Source: Rufibacter sp. XAAS-G3-1 (GTDB lineage Bacteria > Bacteroidota > Bacteroidia > Cytophagales > Hymenobacteraceae). Taken from it: a stretch of DNA of 64,000 nt. The translations under genes and the position numbers were made by a program. The DNA is taken from NCBI RefSeq assembly GCF_013623775.1, contig NZ_JABFAM010000007.1:186001-250000 (forward strand), given 5' to 3'. Below the pieces are notes generated by a model. That model worked only from the letters and a program-made list of their open reading frames with translations. It ran no database searches and was not told the DNA's origin. How positions within the stretch are numbered: position 1 is the first letter of the stretch; the number at the start of each line of letters is the position of its first letter. Positions 46,241 through 64,000 of this stretch are shown here, piece after piece.

Positions 46241-47032
46241 TTACCGCTCCTGCGAAAACAGCCACGGCAGCAAGCCCGGCTCCGCGAAAGCGGCGTCCCA
46301 ACTGTTGTGGTTGGCGTTGGGATAAACGGTGTGCTTCACCTCTTTGGCACCCAGGGCTTTGAGTTGGGCGACTACCCGCCCCGAGAGGTGCGGGGCCACC
46401 ACGTCATCCTTGCCGCCGTGGAAAACCCACAGGGGCACCTTCCGGTATTTTCGGGCGTTGGCCACGTTGTCGCCGCCGCAGATGGCAAAGGCCGCCGCGA
46501 AGTACCTGGGCTCCCGCCTAAGCACCTCAAACGTGCCCATGCCGCCCATAGACAGGCCACCCACGTAGAGGCGCTTCTTGTCCACGTGTTTCTCAGAACG
46601 GGTTTGCTTCACCAAGTCCAGCAGCAGGCGCAGGGGGGGCATGGGGGCGCAGCCGGTCAGGAAATTGAAGTGCCGCTTGCCGCCGGGCTCGGTCACGATG
46701 TTCACGTTTGACCAGTAACTGTCTTGGGGGCACTGCGGGAAGATGACAATGGCCGGGAAGTTCTGCCTTACGCTATCCTGCAGAAAGAGCCTGCCCCCGT
46801 GCACCAACTGCGCTTCATTGTTGTCGCCCCGCTCCCCGGCACCGTGCAGGAAAAATAAAACGGGGTACTTCTGGGCGGGGTTGAAGTCTGCGGGGTACAG
46901 AATGCGGTACCGCAGCGTGTCAGATTTGGAAATGAACTGTCTGTGTGCATACTCGGGGAAATCCTGCGCCTGGCCCGGGTAGGAGAGAAGTGTCAGAAGC
47001 AGGCAGAGCCACCGGTGTTTTTTCGTTTTCAT
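46241..47032 (-). CDS. Secreted alpha/beta-hydrolase (esterase/feruloyl esterase-like)
   Basis: A 263-residue exported alpha/beta-hydrolase (signal MKTKKHRWLCLLLTLLSYPGQA). Catalytic elements: oxyanion-side FFLHGAGERGDNN, nucleophile Ser in GGLSMGGMG, Asp in FHGGKDDVV and His in NANHNSWD. It resembles the one-domain esterases common in polysaccharide loci, which remove acyl groups from glycans. The ATG at 47032 puts the signal peptide at the N-terminus; a longer frame exists but begins in repeat DNA. It is the last gene of the minus-strand polysaccharide locus. Confidence 0.82.
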   Translation of the reverse strand: MKTKKHRWLCLLLTLLSYPGQAQDFPEYAHRQFISKSDTLRYRILYPADFNPAQKYPVLFFLHGAGERGDNNEAQLVHGGRLFLQDSVRQNFPAIVIFPQCPQDSYWSNVNIVTEPGGKRHFNFLTGCAPMPPLRLLLDLVKQTRSEKHVDKKRLYVGGLSMGGMGTFEVLRREPRYFAAAFAICGGDNVANARKYRKVPLWVFHGGKDDVVAPHLSGRVVAQLKALGAKEVKHTVYPNANHNSWDAAFAEPGLLPWLFSQER

Positions 47033-47341
47033 AAGATTTGGGGTTTGGGGTGAAAGCAAGGCGTAAGGACGATACTGGTCAGCGTTTTCCATTTTGGTTC
47101 TGGCGCAAGCGTTCGCTTGGGCCCAGACTGGCGGGGCGTTCTGTTTTCCGGCTGTTTTCCGGAATCAACCTGAAAAACGTTGGCCCAAGCAGACGCTTGC
47201 GCCAGGCAAGACTGCTAGGAATGCCCATTTCAAATAACTCTGAACAGGCTTTACTTCTTTGGCTTACTGTAAAAAGAATCCTGGGTTTTGGGGCCGTTTT
47301 CCCGAAAACGGCCCCAAAACCCAGGATAAAAACATGCTCCG
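47033..47341. other. Intergenic repeat block between esterase and GH3 genes
   Basis: Contains a long inverted repeat with arms TGGCGCAAGCGTTCGCTTGG (about 47100) and CCAAGCAGACGCTTGCGCCA (about 47193) enclosing an H palindrome (47138-47180), then a perfect 22-bp-arm palindrome at 47280-47325. No gene. Confidence 0.6.
47280..47325. terminator. Perfect 22-bp H palindrome at the end of the GH3 gene
   Basis: Arms CCTGGGTTTTGGGGCCGTTT-TC and GA-AAACGGCCCCAAAACCCAGG with only two bases between. It lies 17 bp beyond the GH3 stop on the minus strand and is followed there by ATTCTTTTT, so it probably ends transcription. Confidence 0.6.
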
Positions 47342-49681
47342 TTATTTCACTAGGGTAAACGAAGCCGCCTGCACATCACGGGAGTTGGTGCCCACGTACA
47401 CGTTGAAATCGCCGGGCTCGGCCACGTAGTTCAGGTTGAGGTCGTGGAACTTCAGGTCTTCCTCGCGAAGCGTGAAGGTGACGGTTTTGGTTTCGCCTTT
47501 CTTCAGGAAAATCTTCTGGAAGTTCTTCAGCTCTTTCACGGGTCTGGTCACGGAGCCCACCACGTCCTGCACGTACAGCTGCACCACTTCCTCGCCGTCT
47601 AGGTTGCCGGTGTTTTTCACCTGCACGGTGACGTTCACGGTGCCGCCCGCCTGCAGCGTCTTGCTGCTCAGGGTAGGGGCAGCGTAAGAGAAAGTGGTAT
47701 AACTCAAGCCGTACCCGAACGGATACAGCGGTTCATTGGGGACATCCAGGTACCGGGACTTGTATTTGTCCAGCAGTTGGCCAGCATAGGGGCGGCCGGT
47801 GGCTTTGTGGTTGTAGTAAATGGGCACCTGGCCCACCGCCTGCGGAAAGGTGGCCGTGATCTTACCGGAGGGGTTGTAGTTCCCGAACAGCACGTCGGCA
47901 ATGGCGTTCCCGCCCTCGGTGCCGGCAAACCAGGTTTCCAGGATAGCATCGGCGTGGTCGTTTTCCCACTTCAGGGCCAGCGGCCGGCCGTTCATCAAGA
48001 CCACCACCAGCGGCTTGCCGGTGGCTTTGAGGGCCTTGAGCAAGTCCAGCTGGTGGCCGGGCAGGGTGATGTCGGCCCGGCTGGAGGCCTCGCCGGTCAT
48101 GCCCTGCGACTCGCCCACTACGGCTACCACCACCTCGGCCCGCTGGGCCACCTGCACAGCTTCCCGGATCATCTCCTGCGGCGTTCTGGGGTCAATCTCC
48201 AGCATGCCGCCGTGGGCGTTGAGCCGTTGCAGCATAAGGGTGTCTGCGGCAATGTTGGCTCCCTTGGCGTAGGTGATTTTCACGTTGGGGCCGGCCACGT
48301 TGCGGATGCCCTGCTCCACGCTGATGGCCTGTTTCCAGTCGCCGGCGCCGTTCCAATTGCCCAGCTGGTCAATCTGGCTTTTCACCAGGGGGCCTACCAG
48401 GGCAATGGAGGCCGTTTTCTTAAGTGGTAGGGCCTGGTTCTGGTTTTTGAGCAAGACCAGGGTGCGGCGGGCGATGTCACGGGCCGCCTCTCGGTATTCC
48501 TTCTTGAGCAGGGTTTCTTTGGCGCGCTGTTCGTTGGCGTAGCGGTAGGGGTCCTCAAAAAGGCCCAGCTTGTACTTGCCTTCCAGAATACGGCGGCAGG
48601 CGACGTCTATCTGGGCCGGGGTGACTTTGCCGTCCTTTACCAGTTGGCCCAGGTGGTTGAGGAACACCTCGCCCACCATGTCCATGTCAATGCCGGCGTC
48701 CAGGGCCACCTTGGCCACCTCGTACTCGTTCTTGCCCATGCCGTGCGGAATCAGCTCGTTGATGGCGGTGTAATCCGTGACCACGAACCCGTCAAACCCC
48801 CATTTGGTGCGGAGCAGGTCGGTCATGAGCCATTTGTTGCCGGTGGCGGGTACGCCGTTGATGTCGTTGAAGGAGGACATGACGCTGGCGGCCCCAGCAT
48901 CCAGGGCGGCCTTGTAGGGCGGCAGGTATTCGTCCAGCATGCGGCGGTCGCTCATGTCGGTGGTATTGTAGTCGCGGCCGGCCTCGGCGGCCCCGTACAG
49001 GGCGAAGTGCTTCACGCAGGCCATCACGGTGTTGTAGGCGGCCAGGTCGGTGCCCTGGTACCCGCGCACCATCGCCATGGCGATCTGGGAGGTGAGCCAG
49101 GTGTCTTCGCCGGAGCCTTCCGAAACCCGCCCCCAGCGCGGGTCGCGGGCTACGTCTACCATGGGCGAGAAAACCCAGTTTAGGCCATCGGCCGAGGCCT
49201 CATCTGCCGAGATGCGGGCACTGCGCTCAATGGCGGCCAGGTCCCAGCTGGCGGCCAGCCCGATGGGCATGGGGAAAATGGTGCGGTGCCCGTGGATGAC
49301 GTCATAGCCGAAGATAAGCGGGATCTTGAGCCGCGACTGGCTCAGGGCTTTCTCCTGCAGTTTGCGTACCGCGATGGGGGTGAACGTGTTGAACACGCCG
49401 CCCACCAGCCCCTTGCTGATTTTCTCGTCCACGTTCTCGCTCACCACCGGGCCGGTCACCGTGAACCCCACCGAGACCAGGTTCAGCTGGCCTATCTTTT
49501 CCTCCAGCGTCATTTTGGCCATGAGCTCATCTATGAATTTCTTCATCTGGGCCGGGTTGGTGGGCGTATGCTTTTGCTGGACGGCCGCCGGGGCGGCTTT
49601 CTTGGTTTTCGCTTTCTGGGCGTGCAGCGGAGGGCATACCAAACCGAGGGACAACGCAAGGGCAAGGCTTATTTTTCTCAT
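47342..49681 (-). CDS. bglX: Beta-glucosidase, glycoside hydrolase family 3 (BglX-like)
   Basis: A 779-residue exported GH3 enzyme (signal MRKISLALALSLGLVCPPLHA). The barrel domain has MTLEEKIGQL, the substrate-binding KHFALYGAAEAGRDYN and the nucleophile Asp in VVTDYTAINE; the GH3 C-terminal domain and a fibronectin-III-like domain (about 675-779, VNVTVQVKNTGNLDGEEVVQLYV) follow. The architecture matches periplasmic BglX, which removes glucose from the non-reducing end of beta-glucans. A much longer frame runs upstream to 50014, but its extra 111 residues are Arg-rich repeat-derived sequence; the ATG at 49681 gives a proper signal peptide. Confidence 0.92.
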   Translation of the reverse strand: MRKISLALALSLGLVCPPLHAQKAKTKKAAPAAVQQKHTPTNPAQMKKFIDELMAKMTLEEKIGQLNLVSVGFTVTGPVVSENVDEKISKGLVGGVFNTFTPIAVRKLQEKALSQSRLKIPLIFGYDVIHGHRTIFPMPIGLAASWDLAAIERSARISADEASADGLNWVFSPMVDVARDPRWGRVSEGSGEDTWLTSQIAMAMVRGYQGTDLAAYNTVMACVKHFALYGAAEAGRDYNTTDMSDRRMLDEYLPPYKAALDAGAASVMSSFNDINGVPATGNKWLMTDLLRTKWGFDGFVVTDYTAINELIPHGMGKNEYEVAKVALDAGIDMDMVGEVFLNHLGQLVKDGKVTPAQIDVACRRILEGKYKLGLFEDPYRYANEQRAKETLLKKEYREAARDIARRTLVLLKNQNQALPLKKTASIALVGPLVKSQIDQLGNWNGAGDWKQAISVEQGIRNVAGPNVKITYAKGANIAADTLMLQRLNAHGGMLEIDPRTPQEMIREAVQVAQRAEVVVAVVGESQGMTGEASSRADITLPGHQLDLLKALKATGKPLVVVLMNGRPLALKWENDHADAILETWFAGTEGGNAIADVLFGNYNPSGKITATFPQAVGQVPIYYNHKATGRPYAGQLLDKYKSRYLDVPNEPLYPFGYGLSYTTFSYAAPTLSSKTLQAGGTVNVTVQVKNTGNLDGEEVVQLYVQDVVGSVTRPVKELKNFQKIFLKKGETKTVTFTLREEDLKFHDLNLNYVAEPGDFNVYVGTNSRDVQAASFTLVK

Positions 49682-49768
49682 TCTCTGTAGTGTTAAACGC
49701 TTAAATCTGTACTCTTTCTTTCTCTTTTGCTCATTCTCTAAAGGCCTCTGTTCGCCGCGAGGCAAACC

Positions 49769-49806: not shown

Positions 49807-49812
49807 CCGCAC

Positions 49813-51564
49813 TTATTTTGACTCCAGCACCGGGCTTCGTTCCGAGACCCCGTTTTCGTTGATGGCCTCTATCTGGAAATAGTAGGGCAGGTCTTTGTCC
49901 ATGCCTTTGTAGTAATACTCGCCGCTGCCGTGCACCATAATGCAGTTGTAGAGCTTGTCTGGGGCAATGCCCACGTAAATGTTGTAGGCGTAGGCGTCTG
50001 CCGACTGAGACCACTTGAGCCAGGCGCTGCGCTTGTCTTTCTGGGTGCGCAAGACCACCAGGTTGTTCACGGGCCGGGGCTTGGCGCCAGTTCCGGTGCC
50101 AAACACCCTGAACCCGCTGATCGCGAATTTGCCGGTGGGCATGTGCAGGTTCTCCAGCTTCAGGAACCGGGTCTTCACGGGTTGGGGTAGTTCCAGGTAG
50201 TCGTGGGGAACATCGGTCTTGTTCCTGCTTTTATCCACCAGCACGTTCCATTTCTTGCCGTCCCGGGAGTGGAGGATTTTGTATTGGTGGTACGTGCCGG
50301 TTTGTTTGCCCAGGAATTCGGCGTCCTGGTCGGCGTAGTTGAGCTGGATGGCCCGCACGGTGCTCAGAGCGCCCAGATCGGTCTGGATCCATTCGCCTTT
50401 GTCTCCGGTGGCGGCGCTCCAGTAGGTTTTGATGCTTTCGTCTACGGCATAGTTGGGCGCATAGGCGGCCAAGGTGGAAGACACCGTGACCGGTTTGTTG
50501 TAGTTGAGGAGCATCCAACCGGTGAAGCGGCTTTTGAGGTGGTCGGCGGGGCCCCCGGGCAGGTAGTGCGGGTAATCGCCGAAGGCGGTGTTGCTGTAGA
50601 GCACCCCGTCTTTGTCAAACCCGGCGGGCCACAGGCCCAGGCGGCGCTCAAAGTTATTCTTCACGGAGACAACCATGGTAGACACGTGCCACCAGTTGTT
50701 CCATCTGTCCTGGAAGGTATTGCCGTGCCCGGCCCCGCGCGCGAAACCGCCGGGCTTGTAGGCGAAGGGGTTGTGCGGTTGGGGGGTAAACGGCCCCAGC
50801 GGATGGTCGCTCACCTGCACGCCATCGGCGTAGCCGCTGAATTCAGTGCCGGGGGCGCCGTATTGGAGGTAGTACTTGCCGTTATGCTTGGTAACCCAGG
50901 CCCCTTCCATAAACGGATCCAGAAAGGTGTTGTCTAAATACTCACCGAAGCGCTGCCAGCCGAATTTCTCGTGGTTGAGGTGGATGAGCGCTTTCTTCTC
51001 GCCAATGGGCTGGAAGGTTTTCCGGTTGATTTCAATGCCGTACAGCGGTAACTCATTGCTGCTGCCCCAGTAGAGGTAGAGGCGGCCGTCGTCGTCCAGG
51101 AAGAAAGCGGGGTCCCAGGCTCCTACCTGGAAGGGCTCCACGGCTTCTTTCCACTCATTGCCCTTGGGGTTGGTGCTCATCCAGAGCGGGAAGTTCTTCT
51201 CATGGGTAGACCCGAAGACCAGCATGGTGTCGCCCAGCACAAACACGGCGGGGGCGCACAAGTCGTCATAGACTTTGTGGTGCGGTTTAAGGAAAGACTT
51301 GGACACGAAATTCCATTGCGCCAGGTCTGGGCTCCACCAGTAGCCCCACTGGTTGGTGGAGAAGAGGTAGTAGTCGCCTTGGTAGGTGACAATGACGGGA
51401 TCTGCGGTGGCACGGTGCTTGCCAGACGCGGTGAACTCTGGGATGGGCGTGTAGCCGTAGTCCAGGTTCATGGGGTTGCAGTAGGTCAGGGGCTTTTGCT
51501 GCCCCAGCGCCTGTCCGGTACCCCCCACCCAAAGTAGGGCGGCTATGAGGCAGAGAATTCTCAT
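49813..51564 (-). CDS. Family 43 glycosyl hydrolase with C-terminal F5/8C-like and FnIII-like domains
   Basis: A 583-residue exported protein (signal MRILCLIAALLWVGGTGQALG). The five-bladed GH43-type propeller (about 25-340) shows HRATADPVIVTYQGDYYLFS (catalytic Asp), WDPAFFLDDDGRLYLYWG and FMEGAWVTKHNGKYYLQYG (catalytic Glu). A discoidin/F5-8C-like domain (about 350-480, YAVDESIKTYWSA) and an FnIII-like domain (about 490-583) follow. GH43-like clans include arabinosidases, xylosidases and galactosidases; the exact activity cannot be read from sequence. It overlaps the upstream GH144-like gene by four bases. Confidence 0.8.
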   Translation of the reverse strand: MRILCLIAALLWVGGTGQALGQQKPLTYCNPMNLDYGYTPIPEFTASGKHRATADPVIVTYQGDYYLFSTNQWGYWWSPDLAQWNFVSKSFLKPHHKVYDDLCAPAVFVLGDTMLVFGSTHEKNFPLWMSTNPKGNEWKEAVEPFQVGAWDPAFFLDDDGRLYLYWGSSNELPLYGIEINRKTFQPIGEKKALIHLNHEKFGWQRFGEYLDNTFLDPFMEGAWVTKHNGKYYLQYGAPGTEFSGYADGVQVSDHPLGPFTPQPHNPFAYKPGGFARGAGHGNTFQDRWNNWWHVSTMVVSVKNNFERRLGLWPAGFDKDGVLYSNTAFGDYPHYLPGGPADHLKSRFTGWMLLNYNKPVTVSSTLAAYAPNYAVDESIKTYWSAATGDKGEWIQTDLGALSTVRAIQLNYADQDAEFLGKQTGTYHQYKILHSRDGKKWNVLVDKSRNKTDVPHDYLELPQPVKTRFLKLENLHMPTGKFAISGFRVFGTGTGAKPRPVNNLVVLRTQKDKRSAWLKWSQSADAYAYNIYVGIAPDKLYNCIMVHGSGEYYYKGMDKDLPYYFQIEAINENGVSERSPVLESK

Positions 51565-52919
51565 TTGGCGGGCGCTGTTGGTAGTTGCGGGCTTTCAAAG
51601 CCCAGTTTCCTCAACCCGCTCTGCACGTCTTTGTCGGCCATGAACAGTTTCCAGAGCAGGCCGGTGCGGTGGTTCTCAACCATGACGATAATGGGGCCCT
51701 GGTCAATGGCCAGGTGGGAGTTGGCGTACCAGTTGTGGTGTTCACTGAAGGCGTCCACAAAACCGTACTCGCCCCAGATTCTGTCGCCCAGGGTGTAGTA
51801 GAAATGCTTGAGGGCCTGCATGGAATACTCAGGCGTGTAAGGGAACGCAGACAGGGCTGCGGTAGGCGTAATGACGCCCAGGTCTTCAGTGGGGGAGTGG
51901 GCGGCGTAGCCCCGGTGGCTGTCAGAGGCGGTTAGCCCCCAGCTGTTGGCACTGTAGCCCTTGTATTGCTTGGGGTTCTGGATCACGTAGGCGCGGTTGA
52001 TGAGGGTGTGGTTTCTGTTCTGCTCCCAGTAGTCGGCGTAGTGGTCTTTGAGGCCGCGCGGGTCCAGGCCCAGGAAGGAGTAGTGGCTGAAGAACAGAGG
52101 GCCGCCGTAATCATAGCCCAGCGGGAGCTTGATGCCCAGGTACTCCCGCCCGTTGCGGAAGTGGTTGCTATTGGCCCAGCCCTGGTGGTAGACCTGCGGG
52201 CTGATTGAATATCTGGGAGATGCCGCCGCCAGCACGTAGGTGATCAGGCATTCGTTAAACCCCCGTATCTGGTGGTTCATGCTCCAGCCGTTGTTGGGGC
52301 TCCAGTGCCAGTACAGTACGTTCTGCCCCCCTTGGGTGTACCAGTTCCACTCAATGCCGTCCCACATTCCCTGGATTTTGCTGCGGAGCTGGTTTTCGGC
52401 GGGGGTGTTGCCGGTGAAATATTGCTTGGCGCAGATAAGGCCCTGGAACAGGAGGGACGTCTCCACCAGATCGCCGCCGTCGTCTTTGGGGCTGAAGCGG
52501 ATCACTTTGCCGGTCTCGCCGTTTAGCCAGTGTGGGAACACACCGTGGAACATGTCGGCCTTCCAGAGGAAGTTTACGATTTTGAGCGTCCGCTCGGCGG
52601 CCTGTTGCCGGGTAATCCAACCGCGCTCGGCGGCTACTATGATGGCCATGACCCCAAAGCCGGTACCGCCCGTGGTCACTACCTCGTTGCCGTAGTCAAA
52701 GGAGGTGTTGCTGCGTTCCCGGGCCATGCCGCTCACGGGGTGCCCAAAATCCCAGAAATATTTAAAGGTCTGTTTCTGCACCAAGTCCAGGAGTTGCTCA
52801 TCGGATAGGTTCTGGGGGCGTTGCAGGGCTTTTTTGGGGGGGGTACTGTTTTTACGTTGGCCAGTAGCCAGGTTGCCTACGAGCAGGCAGATAAGGAGGA
52901 AGACGGAAAGTTTCTTCAT
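51561..52919 (-). CDS. Glucoamylase-family protein, GH144-like (first copy)
   Basis: A 452-residue exported protein (signal MKKLSVFLLICLLVGNLATG) of the putative glucoamylase family (PF10091) that contains GH144 endo-beta-1,2-glucanases. Seen: LVQKQTFKYFWDFGHPVSGMARER near the N-terminus, TTGGTGFGVMAIIVA, SPKDDGGDLVETS, NVLYWHWSPNNGW, YGGPLFFSHYSFLGLDPRG, SWGLTASDSHRGYAAHSPTED and HLAIDQGPIIVMVENHRTGL, an (alpha/alpha)6-barrel pattern. The long frame upstream to 53144 is rejected because the ATG at 52919 gives the signal peptide. Coupled to the GH43 gene by a four-base overlap. Confidence 0.85.
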   Translation of the reverse strand: MKKLSVFLLICLLVGNLATGQRKNSTPPKKALQRPQNLSDEQLLDLVQKQTFKYFWDFGHPVSGMARERSNTSFDYGNEVVTTGGTGFGVMAIIVAAERGWITRQQAAERTLKIVNFLWKADMFHGVFPHWLNGETGKVIRFSPKDDGGDLVETSLLFQGLICAKQYFTGNTPAENQLRSKIQGMWDGIEWNWYTQGGQNVLYWHWSPNNGWSMNHQIRGFNECLITYVLAAASPRYSISPQVYHQGWANSNHFRNGREYLGIKLPLGYDYGGPLFFSHYSFLGLDPRGLKDHYADYWEQNRNHTLINRAYVIQNPKQYKGYSANSWGLTASDSHRGYAAHSPTEDLGVITPTAALSAFPYTPEYSMQALKHFYYTLGDRIWGEYGFVDAFSEHHNWYANSHLAIDQGPIIVMVENHRTGLLWKLFMADKDVQSGLRKLGFESPQLPTAPAK

Positions 52920-53097
52920 AGGTGGTAAAGGCTGATGGGAAGGAAGGTAAAGCAGTGGCTGCGGTACGTTTGCCTCCCGGGTAAAGGGTAAAGAGGGGAG
53001 TGCCGCCGGGCAAAGCGTTCCTGGCGCGGTTAGACTCCCCCATGAAAGAACTGGTGACGGGCAGGGGCTAAGAACCCGGGCCTTAGAAGTAGAAGGG

Positions 53098-53137
53098 CGT
53101 TTCTGGGCTGTTTTTAGTGAAACAGCCCAGAAACGCA
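53098..53137. repeat. H-family palindrome (near-perfect)
   Basis: GCGTTTCTGGGCTGTTT ... AAACAGCCCAGAAACGC with 17-bp arms, 20 bases beyond the LamG lipoprotein stop codon on the minus strand and upstream of the first GH144-like gene. Confidence 0.65.
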
Positions 53138-53156
53138 CCCTCAACTGGGCAGGTGG

Positions 53157-54428
53157 TTATTTTTCAGTGTTGTACATGGCCAATACCTCGGCCCCGGTTA
53201 AGGCGGTGTGGAAAATCCTTACTTCATCCAAGCTGCCTCTGAAGTGGTTGGCGGTGGTGAAATTATAGCCTCCCCAAGGCTCTGCGGCCCACAGCGTGCC
53301 TCCCCTGGACTGGTTGAAGCCAAGGGCCAACTTATTTTCCACTTCAGTATTGGCGTTGAATTTTATTCCCTTCACCGTTTTCAGTTTTTCGGTGTCTGGC
53401 AACAAGGTGAAATTGTCTTTCTCCATCAGCTCGCCGTTGATGTACAGGTACCTTGATTTAGTGGCGCTGTTGAACACGAAGGTGATGTGGGCCCATTTGT
53501 CTTTTAGCAAAGCGGCCACCCCGCCAGAGCCGGTAAGGTCTTTGCGGGTTTCAACCGCCGCCCATCCGCCGTTGGCGGCGTTTTTCCCGTCGCCGTTGAA
53601 GAAGAAGTCGTTGGAGCCAGTGGTTCCGTCTGCCCACTCAAACCTGTTCCCCATTTTAATGGAGCCATAGTCGCCGGCCACCTCCATGGAAAGCCCGTGG
53701 AAAGCACCCAGCCCAAACACAAAGTGCGCCTTAGGTTTGCCGCTGGCATCTACATGGTCTGTGGAGACCGCCTTCATCCAGAAACTCATGGTGAAATTAG
53801 TGGCGTTGATGAGTTGCGCGCCGTCGGGGATTTCAATGATGGAGGTGGTTCCGTTGAAAACGGCCGCGGCGTTGGCCTGGTTTTTCCGGTCTGGGCCGTA
53901 CGTGATGCCCACCATGCCGCTGGACGGGGCCGAGAAGGAGCCTAAGGCATCAGCGGCGTTGCCGTTGAACGACCAATGCGCAATAACGCCGGGCATTGGG
54001 GCCGTACCGGCCGTGGTGAAGCTTTTGGTCATGGCCGGCAGGGTTTGCCCGTCAGCAGATTTCATGGCCCCAACGCTTAGGGTGTAGGCGGTTCCGGCCG
54101 TGAGGGTGGCAGACGGGGTAAGGGTAACCTCTGCCCCAGTCACCGTCACGTTGGCGGGCACGTTGGCGGTTTGGCCTTGCTTTGTGAGCGTTACGGTGGT
54201 GTTAGTGGCACTGGCGGGGTCTACGTTGGTAGAGAAAGTGGCTTTGATTGGGGCATCAGTAGGTACGTTGGTGGCGGCGGCAGAAGTGTTGAGGTCTACT
54301 GTGCCGACCATCAGTGACTGAAGCACAAACTTGGTTGGCTCTGGGGCATCATCTTCGCCACAGGCGGTAAAACAGAGAAAGGTGATGGCTGCCAGCCATA
54401 GTTTCCAGCGGTTTAATTGATTTTTCAT
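53157..54428 (-). CDS. Lipoprotein with Ig-like and LamG (concanavalin-like) domains
   Basis: A 423-residue lipoprotein (signal ...ITFLCFTACGEDD, acylated Cys24). Residues about 30-140 form a bacterial Ig-like domain (DAPIKATFSTNVDPASATN, LTAGTAYTLSVG) and about 150-420 a LamG/concanavalin-like lectin domain (VIAHWSFNGNAADALG at the start, NHFRGSLDEVRIFHTALTGAEV at the end). The position between the two GH144-like genes and the SusC/SusD pair suggests a surface glycan-binding protein of the locus. No catalytic residues recognised. Confidence 0.8.
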   Translation of the reverse strand: MKNQLNRWKLWLAAITFLCFTACGEDDAPEPTKFVLQSLMVGTVDLNTSAAATNVPTDAPIKATFSTNVDPASATNTTVTLTKQGQTANVPANVTVTGAEVTLTPSATLTAGTAYTLSVGAMKSADGQTLPAMTKSFTTAGTAPMPGVIAHWSFNGNAADALGSFSAPSSGMVGITYGPDRKNQANAAAVFNGTTSIIEIPDGAQLINATNFTMSFWMKAVSTDHVDASGKPKAHFVFGLGAFHGLSMEVAGDYGSIKMGNRFEWADGTTGSNDFFFNGDGKNAANGGWAAVETRKDLTGSGGVAALLKDKWAHITFVFNSATKSRYLYINGELMEKDNFTLLPDTEKLKTVKGIKFNANTEVENKLALGFNQSRGGTLWAAEPWGGYNFTTANHFRGSLDEVRIFHTALTGAEVLAMYNTEK

Positions 54429-56266: not shown

Positions 56267-56332
56267 ATGTCTGTTTGTGTTTGTTCTTAGCCGGTAAGCT
56301 CTAAGGCCGTTGGCTACTAAATGGGAATTCAA

Positions 56333-56544: not shown

Positions 56545-58035
56545 TTAGTAATTGGGGTTCTGGGTAAGGACTCCGGCAGATTTGTCTATCTCGCTTTGTG
56601 GAATAGGCATCACTTCATGTTTGCCGGTCACAAAGTTTTTACCGGCGGCGCGTAACACATCGCCGGCAATGCCCCAGCGCACCAGGTCATAAAAACGCTC
56701 GTGCTCCATGGCCAGCTCAATGCGCCGCTCCTGGCGGATCAAGGTGCGGAGGGCGGCCTGGTTGCGTTCCGTGATTCTGGGTAAGATGGCCGCGTTGTTG
56801 CCCCGGGCGCGGGCGCGCACCATCTCCAGGTTGGCCAAGGCGATGTCTGTGTTGGCCGTGCCACCCAGTTCATTGGCGGCCTCGGCGGCCATGAGCACCA
56901 CATCCGCGTAGCGGAGAAGGCGGATGTTCATCCAGTACCCTTTCTGGTTGCCCACGGTGGTGCGTACGCTGGGGTTGGTGTACACCTTCTGGTTGTAGCG
57001 CTCGTTAGGCGGGGTGGTCTGCATGGTTTCCCCGTAAGGCGTGGTTTCGCCCCGGTACAGGATGGTGGCCTCCCGGCGCGGGTCGTTCGGCTCATAGGCA
57101 TTGTGCAGGAGAAGCGACGGCGAGTTGAAGCCCCAGCCCAAGTCTTGCGCGCCGGAGCCCCGGAAACCCTGCACCTCGGCATACTGGGTGCCAAACTGGT
57201 TGGTGCGGGTGTAGACCGCCTGCACCTCAAACACAGATTCGCGGCTGTTTTCCCGGGTTTCAGTGAAAATCTGGTTGTACGGCACGCTCAAGTCATACAT
57301 GCCCGAGCCCATCACTGCCTGGGCGCTGGACAAGGCCGCCCCCCATTTCTGCTGGTAGAGATACACTTTGGCCAGCATGGCCTGGGCCGTCCAACTGGTG
57401 GGCCGGCCGGCAAAACCGGTTCCCCAGGACGAAGGCAGGCTGGCGGCCGCAAACTGGAGGTCTTGCTCAATAAAGGCGTAAAGCTGGGCCTTGGAAGACT
57501 GCGGGATGTTGAAGTTATCGCCTTCGGCGAAGACTTTGTCTACAATGGGTACCCGGCCGTAGGTTCTTACCAGGTTAAAGTACAGATACGCCCTGATGAA
57601 CCGGGCCTCGGCCTGCGAAGTGGTGTAATCTTCTGGGGTGATGGTGCTTCTGAGGGCCTCGGCCTGTTGGAGCACAATGTTGCATTTGCTGATAGCCGTG
57701 TAGTGCGCCCGGTAAAAATCTGTGATGAGGCCGTTGGCGGGCAGGATAGTGAAGTTGTCCAGGGCCAGTTGGTCGGCTCCGTCGGCCGGGGTGCTGCCTT
57801 TGTCGGCGTCGTCTGAGGTAATGCTGGTGATGCCCACGAACGCGAACGCGTGCACGCCCCAAGACCGCAGGTCTGAATACATGCCGTACACGTACTGGGT
57901 AAGCCCCCCGGCAGGGTACGTCTCGGTGGTGAATCTGCCCAGCGGCTCCCGGTCCAAGAAATCGTTGCAGGAGAGGCCGGTAAGGGAAAGTGACCCCAGC
58001 AGGGCGATGGAGGTATATTTAGATAGCTTTTTCAT
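56545..58035 (-). CDS. SusD/RagB family nutrient-binding outer-membrane lipoprotein
   Basis: A 496-residue SusD-type lipoprotein (LTGLSCNDFLDREPLG; acylated Cys23 followed by the family start CxDFLDREP). The N-terminal helices are TPR-like (ALDNFTILPANGLITDFYRAHYTAISKCNIVLQ in segments, ARFIRAYLYFNLVRTYG), and the C-terminal part holds RIELAMEHERFYDLVRWG. SusD caps the SusC barrel and binds the glycan. The gene begins six bases after the end of susC, so the two are co-translated. Confidence 0.93.
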   Translation of the reverse strand: MKKLSKYTSIALLGSLSLTGLSCNDFLDREPLGRFTTETYPAGGLTQYVYGMYSDLRSWGVHAFAFVGITSITSDDADKGSTPADGADQLALDNFTILPANGLITDFYRAHYTAISKCNIVLQQAEALRSTITPEDYTTSQAEARFIRAYLYFNLVRTYGRVPIVDKVFAEGDNFNIPQSSKAQLYAFIEQDLQFAAASLPSSWGTGFAGRPTSWTAQAMLAKVYLYQQKWGAALSSAQAVMGSGMYDLSVPYNQIFTETRENSRESVFEVQAVYTRTNQFGTQYAEVQGFRGSGAQDLGWGFNSPSLLLHNAYEPNDPRREATILYRGETTPYGETMQTTPPNERYNQKVYTNPSVRTTVGNQKGYWMNIRLLRYADVVLMAAEAANELGGTANTDIALANLEMVRARARGNNAAILPRITERNQAALRTLIRQERRIELAMEHERFYDLVRWGIAGDVLRAAGKNFVTGKHEVMPIPQSEIDKSAGVLTQNPNY

Positions 58036-58041
58036 ACAGAC

Positions 58042-61032
58042 TTAGAAATTAATGTTGATGCCTCCGGTAAAGATGGACGGTACCGGATAGGTGCCGTTGT
58101 CAACGCCAGAGCTCAATGGCCCCCCGCCAACCTCTGGCGAGTACCCGGTGGCCTTGGTGAAGGTCTTGAGGTTCTGGGCGTTCACGTAGATTTTTGCCCC
58201 TTTCATGCGGAGTTTCTCCAGCACACCTCCCCGCAGGTTATAGCCCAGGGTAAGGTTTCTGATCCGGAAATAGTCTCCTTTCTCCAGAAAGTAGTCGGAG
58301 GGCAGGAAGTTCTGGGCGCGGGTGTTGTCTAAGATGGGCTCAAAGGTAGAGGTGCCTGGGCCGGTCCAGCGGTTAAACCGGCGGGCTTCGTAGTTCAGGA
58401 TGGAGAAATTTTGGGCAATGCGGTTGTTGTAAATGTGGTTTCCGGCTACGCCTTGTACATCTACCCCCAGTTCAAACCCTTTAAAGGTTAAGTTTACGGA
58501 AGCTCCGTAGGTTAACTCTGGGGTGGGCGAGCCAATATACGTACGGTCTTTGTCATTAAAGATGCCGTCGCCGTTTACGTCTTTGAAACGGATGTCACCT
58601 GGTTTGGCGGTGGTGGCCTGTAAAGAGCCGGCTACCTCTTCGGGGGTTTGGAAGATACCGTCATGCACGTAGCCGTAAAAGTGACCGATTGGGTAATTGA
58701 CGGACGTTCTGGAAAAGTTACCCGCAAAGATGTTAAATCCTTCGTTTTCCCCCAGGGCCAGCACCTCGTTATGGATGGTGGTCAGGTTGGCGCTCACGCT
58801 GTAGCCGAAATCCCCTTTCTGGTCGTTCAAAGTGCCTGAGAACTCAAATCCCCGGTTCAGAACAGTGCCGGCGTTCACTAAGGTGGTGGGAACGCCCACG
58901 GTGGCTTGGCGTTCTATGGTGGTTAAGATGTCTTTTGTTTTGCGGTTGTAGTAATCTACCTCAATGCTGAGTTTGTTGTTGAGCGTTACGAGCTCTACGC
59001 CCGCATCAAAGCCTTCAATCTTTTCCCACCTAATGCCGGGGTTAGGCACGTAGGCGGGCACGGCGGCTGGGTAGATCTGCTCCCCGAACACTGCCGAGAC
59101 CCCGGTGTTTAGCGTAGGGTAGATGACGTAGTCGCCCTGTTGGTTTCCCTGCTGGCCCCAAGACGTTTTCAGTTTGAGGAAGTTGACGAAACTCTGGCTC
59201 TGCATGAAGTTCTCCTCACTGATGACCCAGCCGGCACCTACCGCAGGAAAGTTGTCGTACTGGTTCACGGGGCCAAACCGAGAGGTTCCGTCGCGGCGCA
59301 GGGACGCATTCAGCAAATATTTGCTGGCGAACGCGTAATTCACCCGGATAAACGTGGCTGCCAGGGCGTTTTCGCTGGCCCCGCCACCGTTGCGCTGGGT
59401 TTCCCGGTCATTGCTGATGCCCAGGTACCAGAAATCTGGGTTGTTGGGGATGGGGGTAGTGAGGCCCTGCACAGAACCACTCACGTTGTCATTGCCGCTG
59501 TACTGCATGGTGGCGCCCACCAGCACAGTTACATCATGTTTCTCCTGGAAGGTTTTGCTGTAAGTGAGAAGGTGGTCTTGCTGCCAGGCGGTGAAAGTGC
59601 TTTTGGATTGGTTAACCCCGCTCACGTCATTGAACTGGGCCCGCTGGTCACCGTACCCAATGGAATAGATGGGGGTATAGCCCCTGCTTTGGTTAAAGCC
59701 CAGATCTGTGAAGAAGGTGGAGCGCCAGGTGAAGTTCTGCAGGAACTTCACCTCAGCGAAGGCAGACCCTACCAAGCGGTAGCCGTTGCTGACGTTGGTT
59801 CCCTTGTTTATTTCCATGAAGGCGACCGGGTTGGCCACCTGCGCCCGCTGGAAAGCGGGCCCAGAGTTGTAGGCCCCCGTTTCATGGTACGGGTTGTACA
59901 CGGGGGCAGCCCAAAGCGAACCTGAAATGCTGCCCGTGGCGGGGGTGCGGTCCCAACGGAACAGGCTCAGGTCGGCGCCTACCTTCACGTGCTTATTCAC
60001 GGTGAACTCATCGCGCAAGTGGGCGGTGTATCTTTTGTAAGAGTCGTATTTCACCAGGCCCTCCTGGTTGAAGTAACTAAGGCTTAGGCTGGCCGAGTTG
60101 CGCTCCGAGGCGGTGGAAATGCTGACGCTGTTGTTGTTGATGAAGGCGTTTTGCCGGAGAATCTGGTCTTGCCAGTCCGTGTTGGCGGTGTAGCCGTTGA
60201 ACTCAAAGTCATAGGGAGACTGGCCCAAGTTGGTGAGCTGCTCATTGTAGAGTTGCTTGAACTGGGCCGCGTTGGCCACCTCAATCTTCTGCCCAACCCG
60301 CTGAATACCCGCGTAGCTGTTCACGTTGATGTTGGTCTCGCCCTGTTTGGCGCGTTTGGTAGTGATGATGATCACCCCGTTGGCACCCTGCAGACCAAAG
60401 ATGGCCAGCGAGGAGGCATCCTTCAGAATCTCCATGGAGGCAATGTCATTGGGGTTTACAAAATCAATGTTATTGGTGAAGATGCCGTCTACTACATACA
60501 GCGGGGAGACCCCGTTGATAGAACCCACACCTCTGATACGGATGCTGGGGGAAGAACCCGGCGAGCCGTTGTTGGTGATCAGCACCCCGGCCGCCTTTCC
60601 CTGGAGGGCGTTCAAGGGATTTGGCACGGGTACGTCTTCAAATTCCTCGGCTTTCAAAGACACAATGGAACCTGTCACATCGCGCTTCTGCTGGGTGCCG
60701 TAACCAATCACCACAACCTGTTCCAATTCATTGGAAGTGCTTTGCAGCTGCACATTGACGGTGGTTCTGCCGTTCACCGCTACCTCCTGGGGGCTGTACC
60801 CCAGATAGCTGAAAACCAGCACACCAGTAGAGGGCACATTGGCGAGGGTATAGTCTCCATTCACATCCGTTTGGGTGCCCAGAGTGGAGCCTTTTAGTTG
60901 AACGCTGGCCCCAATCAGGTTTTCGGGGGGAGTGCCGCTTGTGATTTTTCCTCTTACCGTAAGCAGCTCCTGCGCGTGCAAGGCTGGGATTAGGAAGAGG
61001 GAAAGCAAAATAGTCAGTAAGGTTTTACGCAT
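58042..61032 (-). CDS. SusC/RagA family TonB-linked outer-membrane receptor
   Basis: A 996-residue TonB-dependent transporter (signal MRKTLLTILLSLFLIPALHA). A carboxypeptidase-regulatory-like domain (about 22-105) is followed by the plug with SusC signatures LNALQGKAAGVLI, SPSIRIRGVGS, PLYVVDGIF and ASMEILKDASSLAIFGLQGANG, and a 22-stranded barrel ending in FTGGININF. It imports oligosaccharides together with SusD. The ATG at 61032 is chosen because it gives the signal peptide; the longer frame to 61083 has 17 extra residues. No FecR/sigma pair is present; control is likely by the Y_Y_Y regulator upstream. Confidence 0.94.
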   Translation of the reverse strand: MRKTLLTILLSLFLIPALHAQELLTVRGKITSGTPPENLIGASVQLKGSTLGTQTDVNGDYTLANVPSTGVLVFSYLGYSPQEVAVNGRTTVNVQLQSTSNELEQVVVIGYGTQQKRDVTGSIVSLKAEEFEDVPVPNPLNALQGKAAGVLITNNGSPGSSPSIRIRGVGSINGVSPLYVVDGIFTNNIDFVNPNDIASMEILKDASSLAIFGLQGANGVIIITTKRAKQGETNINVNSYAGIQRVGQKIEVANAAQFKQLYNEQLTNLGQSPYDFEFNGYTANTDWQDQILRQNAFINNNSVSISTASERNSASLSLSYFNQEGLVKYDSYKRYTAHLRDEFTVNKHVKVGADLSLFRWDRTPATGSISGSLWAAPVYNPYHETGAYNSGPAFQRAQVANPVAFMEINKGTNVSNGYRLVGSAFAEVKFLQNFTWRSTFFTDLGFNQSRGYTPIYSIGYGDQRAQFNDVSGVNQSKSTFTAWQQDHLLTYSKTFQEKHDVTVLVGATMQYSGNDNVSGSVQGLTTPIPNNPDFWYLGISNDRETQRNGGGASENALAATFIRVNYAFASKYLLNASLRRDGTSRFGPVNQYDNFPAVGAGWVISEENFMQSQSFVNFLKLKTSWGQQGNQQGDYVIYPTLNTGVSAVFGEQIYPAAVPAYVPNPGIRWEKIEGFDAGVELVTLNNKLSIEVDYYNRKTKDILTTIERQATVGVPTTLVNAGTVLNRGFEFSGTLNDQKGDFGYSVSANLTTIHNEVLALGENEGFNIFAGNFSRTSVNYPIGHFYGYVHDGIFQTPEEVAGSLQATTAKPGDIRFKDVNGDGIFNDKDRTYIGSPTPELTYGASVNLTFKGFELGVDVQGVAGNHIYNNRIAQNFSILNYEARRFNRWTGPGTSTFEPILDNTRAQNFLPSDYFLEKGDYFRIRNLTLGYNLRGGVLEKLRMKGAKIYVNAQNLKTFTKATGYSPEVGGGPLSSGVDNGTYPVPSIFTGGININF

Positions 61033-61710
61033 AGTAGAATAGGTTAGGGAATGGAAGCTCAGTTTGCTTTGAATCTGATTCAAATGTCTTTACTTATCCG
61101 GTGTGAACCCAAAAAAGCACCTATACATGGCTACATCAGGTGAAAAAATGTTAAAATAAGTTGAATAAATCGGCTTAAAAGTAGTTTTAAGCCAAAATAT
61201 AGGGTCTTATTTAACAAATTAGCATTTGCCTGTCTGGCTGGCTTTTAAAGCTTTGTGTGGTAATGTTGAGGTGAAATATGCCCCAGGCCAGGTGAATTAG
61301 AAGCCCATGCCAACGTGGTGCTCCCTAACTGAAGAGGCCGTGCGGCTGTTTCCAGCCCGTTTTTAGAAAAACAGGACGTAAACGCCTGAGCGGCTCTTAT
61401 CTCTGGCGGAGAGTGGCTGGAATGAAATGAATTGCCGCAAGTTGACTCTGGGGTTTCCCGTTAACGGAAGGAGGGGTAGGGCTGAAGCACCTGGGGAGAG
61501 CTGGTTTTGCTGCGGTTTCCCGGCTTAGATCTCAAACAGCAGCAAGCCGTCTTTGCTTGGCGTGAGACCCTCCCTAAAAAGCCGGTTGGGAATAACGCTT
61601 GCTGCTCACTTTCTGAGACCTTGCCCACTACAAAGCGCGTTTACGGCCTGTTTTTAGAAAAACAGGCCGTAAACGCGCTTTGTAGTGGGCAGGGTAATCT
61701 CCCGGCGGGC
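61033..61710. other. 678 bp region between the regulator gene and susC
   Basis: The AT-rich part next to susC (61083-61260) is the likely promoter and operator zone. No full TAnnTTTG match was found there, which would fit a promoter that needs an activator. Further on are an H palindrome (61340-61380) and the perfect palindrome at 61623-61690. No gene seen. Confidence 0.5.
61623..61690. terminator. Perfect 33-bp palindrome after the regulator gene
   Basis: Arms 61623-61655 and 61658-61690 are exact reverse complements with two bases between. It contains the H core GGCCTGTTTTT/AAAAACAGGCC, extended outward by GCCCACTACAAAGCGCG. Twenty bases past the regulator stop on the minus strand. No T-tract follows it. 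Confidence 0.65.
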
Positions 61711-64000
61711 CTATACTTCCATCAAGAACTCCACCAGGTTTTTCTCGTGGTCCAGGTTCAGCTTTTTGCGGAGGCGGTAGCGGCTTATCTCCACGCTCCG
61801 GACGGTAATGTTCAACAGGGAGGCAATTTCCTTGCTGTTCATGTTCAGGCGCAGGTAGGCGCAAAGCTTCAGGTCTTTGGGGGTGAGCTCGGGGTGAAGG
61901 GTCTTGAGTTTCTTGAAATAGTTTTCGTGGGCCTCGTTGAAACTGCTCTCAAACAGGTTCCAGTCATACCCTTTGTCTATGCCTTCGTCAATCACTTTCT
62001 GCAGCTTTTTCAGTTGCTCGGGAGAGAGTTTTTTGCCGCTGGCGTCTTTCAGAAGCAGGATTTCTTGGCGGATGCCTTCCAGCAGCTCATTCTTAGAGAC
62101 AATGTTGAGGGCCGAGTTGGCCAACTCGCGGCTTTTTACGGCCAGTTCAGACTCCAGCTGCTCATTGCGGAGCTTCACCAGCTTCTGTTCATTGACAATG
62201 GCCTCGCGGCGGAGGTGCTCTTCCTTTTCCTGCTCCAGCTTCAGCCGTATCCTTTCCTTGTCTTGGTGCAGCCGGGCGTGGTACAGATGCCTGAAAAGCA
62301 GCAGTAGCAGCAGGCCCACCACCACGTACCCCAGGTAGGCCCAGTACGTGGCATACCACGGCGGCCCCACGGTAAACCTAAACGCAGTGACGGGTGAGGT
62401 GGCCTCGTTCTCAATCTTGGCCCGCACCAGAAAACGGTAGTTGCCCTGGGCCAGGTTAAGGAATTCCTTTTGGGAAGCGTACGCCCAGTCTGACCATTCT
62501 TTGGAATAGCCTTCCAGAAAATACTGGAATTTGGGTTTCATCTGGCTGTAATAGGGCAAGGAGAAAGCAATGCTGAGGCTGTTTCTCTTGTAAGGAATCT
62601 CCAGGTGAACAGAATTCGTCTCGGCCAGGGGGTAGCGGGCTTCTGAATGGTGCTGCACTTTTCTGATGAGCACCGGCGGAAGGGTCTTTTTGGGGGGAGG
62701 GGCTACTTCGGTGTTGTACACCGCAAAGCCATCATCAATACTGATAAGGTAGCTGGACTTGCTGATGCGGCTGATGTTTTCATAGTACTGCACCATGTGG
62801 CCGCTGAGCAGGTTGAAAGGGGTGGAGCTTACGCGAACGGTGCCCGCCTGGGGCATGTCTACCAAGGCCAGCCGGCCATGGTTTATAAACCAGTACTGGG
62901 TGCCCGCCGCCTGAATGATGCGGTTGGAGGACGCGAAAGCCCCCAGTTTCTTGTTGAGCTCAGTGTATTTGGAGAAGCTGTCGCTCACGGCGTCGTACCC
63001 GTAGAAACCGTCCTCTGAGGTGAAAACGGCGCGGCCGTTTAACCGAAACACGTTGATCTGGTCATCGGCCGGAAGGCCTTGCTCCTGGTTGTAGTACGTA
63101 ACGGACTCGGCCCTAGTCATGTCGGCGCTCAGGGTCAGTTTGTACAGGCCGCGGTAGGCGTGGCTCACCCAGATGTGGCCCGTGTTGTCCTGCTCCACAA
63201 ACCGGGACGGCTCCCCAAAGCCCTCTATCCTATGGGAGACCACCCACTTGCCGCCCGCGTCCTTTTTATAGACCACCAGGCCCGTGTAGGTGCCCTGTAG
63301 AAGGGTTGGCGCTGGGGAGGTGAGTTTCTTGAGCGTCCAGCCCCCTTTGAACCCCGACAGTTTCTGAAGCCGGTCGCCCTCTACCCTGAAGGTGCCCTCG
63401 TTATGCCCGCACAGCAGCTGGCCGTCTTGCAGCGTGAGTTCCCACACCTGCCCCTGGCTGCCTTCAATGATCCTGAAATCCAGGGATTGGTACTGCTGGG
63501 CGTGGTTTGGGGCCCAGTCGCTGTAAAAAAGCCCCTGGTTGGTGCCCAGATAGATTTTGCCTTGGTGAATGATGCTGGAATAAACCGTGCCGAAGGTTCC
63601 GGTTTTGTCAAAGTAGAAGTACAGCGGGGAATTGACCTCAATGCGGTCAACGCCGTTGTCTAAACCCGCCCAGAGGTTGTTTTCCCGGTCGGTGAACAGG
63701 CTGAGGACGGTGTTGTTTTGCAGGCCGCCGGCTTTGTTCATGCGGTGCAGGATCTTTCCTTCCTGGTTTAGGATCACCAAGCCGTTGAGGATGGTGCCGT
63801 ACGCCACCGTTTGGTTCTGCAAGACCACCCCGTTGTTCAGCTGGTTGGTTTTCAGGAAATCATTGGCGGCAGGGGAGCCCCACGGCGAAATGGAAGTGCC
63901 GTCAAACAGAAACAGCCCGCTCTTGGCGGTGCCAATCAGAAAGGAATTGCCCTGGAAAGGCAGCACAGACAGTACTCCCGTGTTGCCCATGGCCTCACTG
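61711..64000 (-). CDS. Transmembrane regulator with beta-propeller, Y_Y_Y and LuxR-type HTH (partial, N-terminus outside window)
   Basis: The visible 759 residues start inside the protein; the frame stays open to the window edge, and no signal peptide is seen. The N-terminal part is propeller-like (GTILNGLVILNQEGKILHR, NTVLSLFTDRENNLWAGLDNG). A Y_Y_Y domain follows (about 480-565), then one membrane helix (YLGYVVVGLLLLLLF), a coiled coil rich in Glu/Lys/Arg and a cytoplasmic LuxR/GerE-type HTH (LTPKDLKLCAYLRLNMNSKE, VRSVEISRYRLRKKLNL). No histidine kinase or receiver domain is present, so it senses outside and binds DNA with one chain. Likely regulator of the adjacent susC operon. Confidence 0.85.
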   Translation of the reverse strand, partial: SEAMGNTGVLSVLPFQGNSFLIGTAKSGLFLFDGTSISPWGSPAANDFLKTNQLNNGVVLQNQTVAYGTILNGLVILNQEGKILHRMNKAGGLQNNTVLSLFTDRENNLWAGLDNGVDRIEVNSPLYFYFDKTGTFGTVYSSIIHQGKIYLGTNQGLFYSDWAPNHAQQYQSLDFRIIEGSQGQVWELTLQDGQLLCGHNEGTFRVEGDRLQKLSGFKGGWTLKKLTSPAPTLLQGTYTGLVVYKKDAGGKWVVSHRIEGFGEPSRFVEQDNTGHIWVSHAYRGLYKLTLSADMTRAESVTYYNQEQGLPADDQINVFRLNGRAVFTSEDGFYGYDAVSDSFSKYTELNKKLGAFASSNRIIQAAGTQYWFINHGRLALVDMPQAGTVRVSSTPFNLLSGHMVQYYENISRISKSSYLISIDDGFAVYNTEVAPPPKKTLPPVLIRKVQHHSEARYPLAETNSVHLEIPYKRNSLSIAFSLPYYSQMKPKFQYFLEGYSKEWSDWAYASQKEFLNLAQGNYRFLVRAKIENEATSPVTAFRFTVGPPWYATYWAYLGYVVVGLLLLLLFRHLYHARLHQDKERIRLKLEQEKEEHLRREAIVNEQKLVKLRNEQLESELAVKSRELANSALNIVSKNELLEGIRQEILLLKDASGKKLSPEQLKKLQKVIDEGIDKGYDWNLFESSFNEAHENYFKKLKTLHPELTPKDLKLCAYLRLNMNSKEIASLLNITVRSVEISRYRLRKKLNLDHEKNLVEFLMEV

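Follow-up and report, generated by a model that had tools for sequence, protein, structure and literature searches.

The question raised by the locus at positions 46241 to 64000 of the 64,000-nucleotide stretch of DNA that was analysed (the window) is which glycan it serves to use and what a GH43 protein does in it beside a pair of GH144 proteins. Beta-1,2-glucan, the first guess of the initial annotation, is a sugar polymer of bacterial origin, and beta-1,2-glucans shape bacterial dealings with hosts and with osmotic stress. Open reading frames and domain matches gave the same gene order as had been proposed, that is, regulator, SusC, SusD, GH144-A, LamG, GH144-B, GH43, GH3 and esterase, with all nine genes present on the minus strand. 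The SusC/SusD pair and the glycoside hydrolases on this one strand make it, by its gene content, a locus of the polysaccharide utilization type, as had been claimed. The SusC/RagA TonB-linked outer-membrane transporter (58042..61083) matched TIGR04056 at 828 bits, the SusD-like protein (56545..58035) matched PF07980 and PF14322, and the LamG protein (53157..54428), with Big_5 and Laminin_G_3 domain matches and a start that looks lipoprotein-like by eye, is probably a surface glycan-binding protein. For SusC, GH144-A, GH144-B and the esterase, signal-like sequence placed the likely starts, chosen by eye, 3' of the ORF starts (at 61032, 56266, 52919 and 47032, respectively) and the same was done for GH3. 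A GH3-beta-lactamase fusion at 42635-45589, on the same strand, was left out of the locus and was the best match nowhere in the 80 GH43 loci that were mapped.

GH144-A (54632..56332) and GH144-B (51561..53144) are 52% identical to each other and are the two PF10091 matches in the whole genome at E up to 0.001, with 225 and 266 bits (1e-66 and 2.8e-79), respectively, against a cut-off of 27. The aligned catalytic domain of GH144-A matched the CpSGL structure 5gzh at E 1.2e-144 and that of GH144-B matched 4gl3 at E 1.5e-188 and 5gzh at E 1.7e-167. It has been reported that the activity of CpSGL drops drastically when D135, D139, E142 or E211 is mutated and that E211, F268 and Y330 are the residues that define the clan (PMC12102758). 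The initial annotation had made its substrate guess depend on the catalytic residues of both proteins, and in the alignment to CpSGL all six of these residues are kept in GH144-A and in GH144-B, which rules out the loss of any of those checked and leaves the guess unrefuted. The same six columns, F268 being column 351, were invariant in 100/100 rows, of which 98 were GH144 proteins from GH43 loci and two were those of the window. What did not hold is the statement that all characterised GH144 members are endo-beta-1,2-glucanases, since an exo-type enzyme that releases sophorose has been described among the GH144 homologs (PMC11842490). GH144-A is predicted to be a surface lipoprotein and GH144-B to be periplasmic. 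Where a locus has a pair of GH144 genes (29 loci), a simple home-made pattern classed the first gene as lipobox-like in 25/29 and the second as not lipobox-like in 21/29; where it has a single GH144 gene (28 loci), that gene was lipobox-like in 7/28, and therefore a surface cutter is not general.

The GH3 protein (47342..49681) scored 1072 bits against the equivalog model NF011678 (BglX), the cut-off of which is 666, and is predicted to be a beta-glucosidase of the BglX type. Its best solved relative is 3u48 (JMB19063; E 6.7e-290) and it also matched 5xxl, listed as a periplasmic beta-glucosidase (E 3e-263), both over nearly the full length. We take 5xxl to be BT_3567, a beta-1,2-glucan enzyme of Bacteroides. 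Intact GH144 residues together with a GH3 of the BglX type support beta-1,2-glucan as the first guess. That the polymer is instead galactose-containing or a mixed beta-1,2 polymer is very unlikely; a Bacteroides xylanisolvens GH144 locus does encode a beta-1,2-galactosidase that ignores beta-1,2-gluco-oligosaccharides (PMC11739564), but the exo-enzyme here is the BglX-type GH3, and the domain scan found no GH35 or GH2 within the locus. The esterase (46241..47092; PF00326, PF02230 and PF00756), a predicted periplasmic alpha/beta-hydrolase, had been counted together with GH43 as a misfit to a plain beta-1,2-glucan. This stood for GH43 and fell for the esterase, because natural beta-1,2-glucans are reported to be often succinylated or acetylated (PMC4726272); the esterase is thus no obstacle to the beta-1,2-glucan reading and was rejected as a strong sign of an undescribed polymer. 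The suggested decorated polymer is thus ordinary in part, and it is for GH43 that the case was strengthened. An esterase-related gene was found in 15/80 GH43 loci, and none matched in the stretch of one congener (L095).

The regulator (61711..64000) continues beyond the window edge with its 5' part, to the equivalent of 64608, and its full length in the contig is 965 aa. It consists of propeller repeats (Reg_prop), Y_Y_Y, one obvious membrane span and a charged helical part. When all 965 aa were scanned at a limit of 1e-5, only Y_Y_Y and Reg_prop were listed and no histidine kinase or receiver domain matched; PF00196 (LuxR-type HTH) falls outside this limit. It was the sole addition when the part in the window was scanned at E up to 0.001, with 22.9 bits, just below the cut-off of 23.5 (E 6.8e-5), and an HTH of the LuxR type is probable. 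With neither a histidine kinase nor a receiver match, a hybrid two-component system was rejected and the one-chain transmembrane regulator that had been proposed is supported. A regulator-related gene is present upstream of SusC in 25/80 GH43 loci. The gene beyond the regulator is divergent and, by eye, encodes a MutL-type protein.

A likely explanation, judged from the sequences, is that this locus serves the utilization of beta-1,2-glucan, probably bacterial periplasmic or cyclic glucans with ester groups, and that GH43 is a periplasmic partner acting on the same glycan. We infer the substrate and the order of the steps from the gene set, and the locations from signal sequences. The LamG lipoprotein and SusD would catch the glucan at the cell surface, where GH144-A would cut it, and SusC would bring the pieces in. 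GH144-B would then shorten the imported pieces, the esterase would strip acyl groups and GH3 would turn the oligosaccharides into glucose, and the propeller regulator may detect the periplasmic pieces and directly switch on the genes. As to GH43, it would most likely take off a non-glucose side sugar or cleave beta-1,2-gluco-oligosaccharides themselves.

GH43 enzymes are five-bladed propellers with an Asp base, an Asp modulator and a Glu acid. The GH43 protein of the locus (49813..51564), which is followed by an F5/8 type C domain (PF00754, 4.8e-17) and a C-terminal FN3-like part with a weak profile match (7jgt) alone, scored 95 bits against PF04616 (5.9e-27; cut-off 32.2), and its triad of D55, D151 and E220 is invariant in 43 sequences. 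Its AlphaFold2 model (pLDDT 84.2) fitted 4qqs with Z 25.6 and rmsd 2.6 over 284 aligned residues at 24% identity. The profile match, the complete triad and this fit place it in the family, the residue roles and the number of blades being general knowledge of GH43. Among solved structures 4qqs was also the best profile match (E 2.7e-12), and identity to the 50 listed as closest was 18-26%; 5msx (GH43_34) matched at E 9.7e-8, the subfamily comparison covering solved members. The best Foldseek match was BT_3662 (5msx), at 19% identity and with an alignment that covers GH43 and the next domain. Because the closest solved relatives are this distant, function is not transferable from them. One tentative reading, somewhat less than evenly weighted, is that GH43 removes an alpha-L-arabinofuranosyl, beta-D-xylosyl or beta-D-galactofuranosyl side group and that the substrate is an undescribed decorated beta-1,2-glucan. 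Activities of this pentose or galactofuranose kind are those known for GH43 (PMC6550366, PMC8939339), the invariant triad is complete and BT_3662 is an alpha-L-arabinofuranosidase (PMC8939339), but the distance to solved relatives speaks against it, as does the description of glucose as the sole constitutive sugar of OPGs (PMC3818809).

The place of GH43 was then examined in the best 80 of at least 588 GH43 relatives, a choice which biases this set of loci to close relatives and in which GH43 is 68-85% conserved; in eight loci compared it is more conserved than SusC or SusD. GH144 was found upstream of GH43 in 61/80 loci, and in all of these (61/61) the closest GH144 gene precedes GH43 and shares its strand; in L016 a GH144 that adjoins GH43 on the upstream side has 799 bits to CpSGL (5gzk, 5gzh). 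The stretch examined had no GH144 gene call in 19/80 loci, of which L068 has a GH144 fragment at the contig edge, L058 was left out and 17 had their genomes searched whole, and a GH144 match was found elsewhere in 16 of the 17, two of them only partial. In an evenly drawn sample of the phylum the two genes lie within 20 kb in 34/66 genomes with both and more than 30 kb apart or on other contigs in 31/66, which weakens the view, drawn from the 61/80 best loci, that GH43 and GH144 are constant neighbours. GH43 as a strain-specific insertion is ruled out, as three congeners (L093 to L095) have it in the same locus and at least 588 relatives of the protein exist. Two loci from the same family (L096 and L097) have GH144, GH144 and GH3 without GH43, and this, together with 70/136 GH144 genomes without the GH43 clade, means that GH43 is dispensable for some glucan use. 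No pentose-specific gene was present among 16 scanned representatives of the 45 neighbour clusters listed. Four neighbour genes scanned in GH43 loci without GH144 gave no substrate hint; they encode an FtsX/MacB permease and a serine carboxypeptidase (L044), an H+-pyrophosphatase (L070) and a GH2 (L083).

Among 395 Bacteroidota genomes the GH43 clade occurs in 69, and GH144 is present in 66/69 of these, that is, absent in 3/69, compared to a base rate of 136/395. GH144 was found in 46/110 genomes with only other PF04616 proteins (Fisher 8e-15 against the clade) and in 31/50 genomes with only other strong PF04616 proteins, chosen by eye at E under 1e-30 (Fisher 3e-6, on related genomes that are not independent trials). 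The control list is incomplete because the PF04616 search missed three clade-bearing genomes (G257, G281 and G375). Within the genus (16 genomes) both genes are present in nine and neither in seven, and in the nine both lie in one locus so that joint loss is possible. GH43-clade genomes thus nearly always have GH144, though often not adjoining, and this strengthens the case for GH43 as the misfit. That saprophytes rich in glycan loci merely keep both families and that GH43 acts on an unrelated glycan is unlikely: genomes with other strong GH43 proteins are also rich in GH144 (31/50) and the 31/66 genomes with distant genes point the same way, but the association survives the strong-GH43 control, the same-strand upstream position is constant in the best loci with both genes, and the pair is all-or-none in the genus, with the reservation that one shared locus allows joint loss.

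The rarity of GH43 without GH144 (3/69, 1/17 and 0/9 genomes) also bears on a second reading of the clade, possible yet rather doubtful, in which GH43 has changed its specificity to become an inverting exo-enzyme that attacks sophorose and longer chains of beta-1,2-linked glucose alongside GH3. Its conservation above SusC and SusD and the lack of a pentose-specific gene in the scanned clusters agree with this, but the latter covers 16 of 45 clusters and GH3 already provides the sophorose-type step. We know of no GH43 with beta-1,2-glucose-cleaving activity, which counts against it. Cleavage of beta-glucans is not among the activities described for GH43 (PMC6550366), and a search at title and abstract level for work that links GH43 to beta-1,2-glucan or to sophorose found no relevant paper, a weak test because some linkage terms match poorly. 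Apart from GH43, its one misfit, the locus is mostly ordinary, and this misfit is not a local oddity. We give about even weight to the proposal that this clade forms a new group by specificity, serving to complete natural beta-1,2-glucan breakdown, by way of an undescribed side sugar or as beta-1,2-gluco-oligosaccharide hydrolases. If true, this would supply a step so far missing from the way in which many Bacteroidota use beta-1,2-glucan. As the clade is kept almost only with GH144, current accounts of the natural polymer, or of how it is broken down, may be incomplete.

GH144 loci with SusC/SusD are among the abundant ones in Bacteroidetes (Lapebie et al. 2019, PMC6499787), and the window has the same combination, whereas the part of that account on these loci mentions no GH43 partner, which the window has. 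Marine GH144 loci share a GH144 pair, GH3 and susCD with the window but have a sulfatase where it has an esterase and GH43 (PMC6499787, PMC8072126). CpSGL of Chitinophaga pinensis, the founding GH144 endo-beta-1,2-glucanase (5gzh, 5gzk), has the six checked residues in common with both GH144 proteins of the window, which differs in having two paralogs, one a predicted surface lipoprotein. The GH3 is likened to 3u48 and 5xxl by sequence and its specificity is predicted. BT_3662, the GH43_34 alpha-L-arabinofuranosidase (5msx) that aligns across GH43 and the next domain, acts on RG-II (PMC8939339), and an identity of only 19% does not imply membership of its subfamily.

The nine genes and their order (regulator, SusC, SusD, GH144-A, LamG, GH144-B, GH43, GH3 and esterase) were all found on the minus strand, as claimed by the initial annotation. 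The window is part of contig C47, and no match to PF10091, the GH144 model, was found in the 5.30 Mb genome beyond GH144-A (54632-56332) and GH144-B (51561-53144). The regulator crosses the window edge and its full length, taken as a single stretch from the contig, is 965 aa. By eye, its start is signal-like and its C-terminal end HTH-like, and in between are a propeller part, Y_Y_Y, a single obvious hydrophobic span and a charged helical part. The HTH-like end scored slightly under the cut-off of PF00196. Because a domain-model scan of the full protein and of its window part detected no kinase or receiver domain, its earlier description as a one-chain transmembrane regulator is fair.

GH144-A and GH144-B are 52% identical; GH144-A matched CpSGL, the GH144 endo-beta-1,2-glucanase of Chitinophaga pinensis (5gzh), at 1.2e-144, and GH144-B matched 4gl3 at 1.5e-188 and CpSGL at 1.7e-167. 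According to the available text of PMC12102758, mutants of D135, D139, E142 and E211 of CpSGL have drastically lowered activity and the clan is defined by E211, F268 and Y330. When the possibility that both proteins lack the catalytic residues was checked, with numbering verified against the printed CpSGL chain sequence, all six residues were found in both, and they were kept in 100 of 100 alignment rows (GH144 proteins of related loci and the window pair). The statement that characterised GH144 members are endo-beta-1,2-glucanases was too narrow, since exo-type action is known among homologs (PMC11842490, in the part available), and therefore endo action of both window proteins is not a given. 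By eye, the N-terminus of GH144-A is lipoprotein-like and that of GH144-B is like that of a secreted periplasmic protein. Of the 29 loci that carry a GH144 pair, 25 have a lipobox-like first gene and 21 a second gene that is not lipobox-like, but of the 28 loci with a single GH144 gene only seven have a lipobox-like one. These N-termini suggest that the pair is split into a surface cutter and a periplasmic cutter.

The GH43 protein (49813-51564) consists of a GH43 domain and an F5/8 type C domain, and a lipobox-like start is absent in 78 of 81 of its relatives. D55, D151 and E220, which we take to be the base, modulator and acid, respectively, were invariant in 43 sequences. Its AlphaFold2 model (mean pLDDT 84.2) has a GH43 fold, the best fold match being 4qqs (Z 25.6, rmsd 2.6, 284 aligned, 24% identity) and the best Foldseek match BT_3662 (19% identity). 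From residues and model, the protein is probably active as a glycoside hydrolase. The solved relatives are distant, at 18-26% identity in the 50 fold-comparison entries listed and a best E of 2.7e-12 in a profile search of solved chains, and hence its activity cannot be transferred from any of them. The nearest named relatives, among the matches listed, were from Rufibacter and Sabulibacter (84-85%), which makes a Rufibacter-like bacterium of the Hymenobacteraceae the probable source of the window. One related locus has a second GH43 relative, 43% identical, in addition to the first (L073:13243-14970).

A scan of the genome collection with GH43 gave at least 594 stretches and at least 588 relatives, of which the best 80 loci were analysed. 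Among these best 80, GH3 was present in 56 and GH144 was called in 61, the nearest copy being upstream on the same strand in all 61 and directly before GH43 in 51. For 17 of the 19 loci without GH144 the genomes were searched whole, and 16 had a PF10091 match elsewhere, two of these partial only. Loci with both genes were from Hymenobacteraceae, Sphingobacteriaceae, Chitinophagaceae, Lentimicrobiaceae and unclassified Bacteroidota. As these 80 loci are the closest relatives, 395 Bacteroidota genomes were searched in addition with GH43 (E up to 1e-100), PF10091 and PF04616, the general GH43 model. The GH43 clade, the close relatives of the window protein, was found in 69 genomes, GH144 in 136 and both in 66, counts which are not independent trials because the genomes are related. 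GH144 was present in 46 of 110 genomes with PF04616 but without the clade and in 31 of 50 in the strong-PF04616 subset; GH43-rich genomes do hold more GH144, yet short of 66 of 69. In the genus, GH43 and two GH144 genes occur together in nine of 16 genomes, and the other seven hold neither. A strict need is argued against by the 70 of 136 GH144 genomes without the clade, by two loci of the same family (L096 and L097) with GH144, GH144 and GH3 but no GH43, and by three genomes with the clade but no GH144 (G190, G219 and G249).

In the 66 genomes with both, GH43 and GH144 were within 10 kb in 33, within 20 kb in 34 and within 30 kb in 35, and in 31 they were further apart or on separate contigs. 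Linkage in the phylum sample is thus looser than the best 80 loci suggest. Linkage within 20 kb was found in 18 of 41 genomes at 60% GH43 identity or more and in 16 of 25 below 60%, and a tree of 82 GH43 rows requires at least 12 changes of the linked state, compared to 16.5 in shuffles. That GH144 is retained even when the genes are separate speaks for shared use over hitch-hiking, although a shared lifestyle could also produce it.

What does GH43 do? Removal of a side sugar is a plausible reading, somewhat short of even odds, and is in line with known GH43 activities (PMC6550366 and PMC8939339, in the parts available). Cleavage of beta-1,2-gluco-oligosaccharides, which we hold more tentatively, follows from the dependence of GH43 on GH144 and from the absence of pentose genes in the 16 neighbour clusters scanned (one representative each; 45 clusters listed). 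Near some GH43 loci there are a GH31 cluster (three loci; L035:7401-9926) and a GH97 cluster (four loci; L005:14874-17060), whose products, as an idea only, could act on the single alpha-1,6 bond of alpha-1,6-cyclized beta-1,2-glucans. In a Pedobacter locus (L021:17647-21173) the PUL is followed by genes for a Gluconate_2-dh3 protein, a GMC oxidoreductase and a Gfo/Idh/MocA protein, with relatives in 8, 10 and 6, respectively, of the best 80 of at least 588 loci; this set suggests oxidative handling of released sugars.

GH3 passed the BglX equivalog model (1072 bits); among solved structures 3u48 is its best relative, and it is also close to several chains that carry the name periplasmic beta-glucosidase. 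Of the best 80 of at least 588 loci, 15 have a relative of the esterase and 17 have another cluster, a GDSL-type esterase by its one scanned member, directly after GH43 in 16. The LamG protein (Big_5 and Laminin_G_3) reads as a surface glycan-binding protein. A LamG-type cluster (one member scanned) in 19 of these 80 loci, lipobox-like in 18, had no match to it at 1e-20 and is therefore an analogue and not a shown relative. Among the loci compared (1e-20 / 1e-10), the LamG gene was matched only in three congeners (L093 to L095), two of which also gave an esterase match. SusC and SusD (56545-61083) are 74-81% identical to those of these congeners and 41-49% identical to those of the Rufibacter/Sabulibacter version (L005, L006 and L007), yet GH43 and GH3 are 83-85% identical to the latter. 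Families, residues and co-occurrence are directly supported, and the course of degradation that we infer is that the propeller regulator would induce the locus, LamG and SusD would capture the glucan at the surface, GH144-A would make the first cut, SusC would import the products, GH144-B would cut further and, after a de-esterification step, GH3 would convert them to glucose.

Five near-perfect palindromes, one family by look, lie at 61618-61695, 53097-53136, 49769-49806, 47278-47327 and 31189-31224, four of them intergenic within the nine-gene locus. Across the genome there are 46 exact copies of the core of the first palindrome (GGCCTGTTTT, 4-base loop, AAAACAGGCC) and none of its reversed control pattern; the other four window copies deviate from that core. 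The palindromes may be a REP-like element or a family of terminators. At 42635-45589, adjoining the BshA gene (41476-42612), a 984-aa fusion protein joins a GH3 N-terminal domain to a serine hydrolase domain of the beta-lactamase type.

GH144 loci are reported to be abundant in Bacteroidetes, with sulfatase in marine forms (PMC6499787 and PMC8072126, in the parts available), and the window locus is therefore of a known kind. GH43 is not named as a partner of GH144 in the available text of PMC6499787, PMC8072126, PMC10405439, PMC6550366 and PMC9122927; the pairing may be tabulated in PULDB, CAZy subfamilies or supplementary tables. The locus itself is ordinary and the dependence of GH43 on GH144 is a testable gap, and the GH144 locus with a GH35 beta-1,2-galactosidase described in the available part of PMC11739564 is a caution that the substrates of GH144 loci may go beyond plain glucan.
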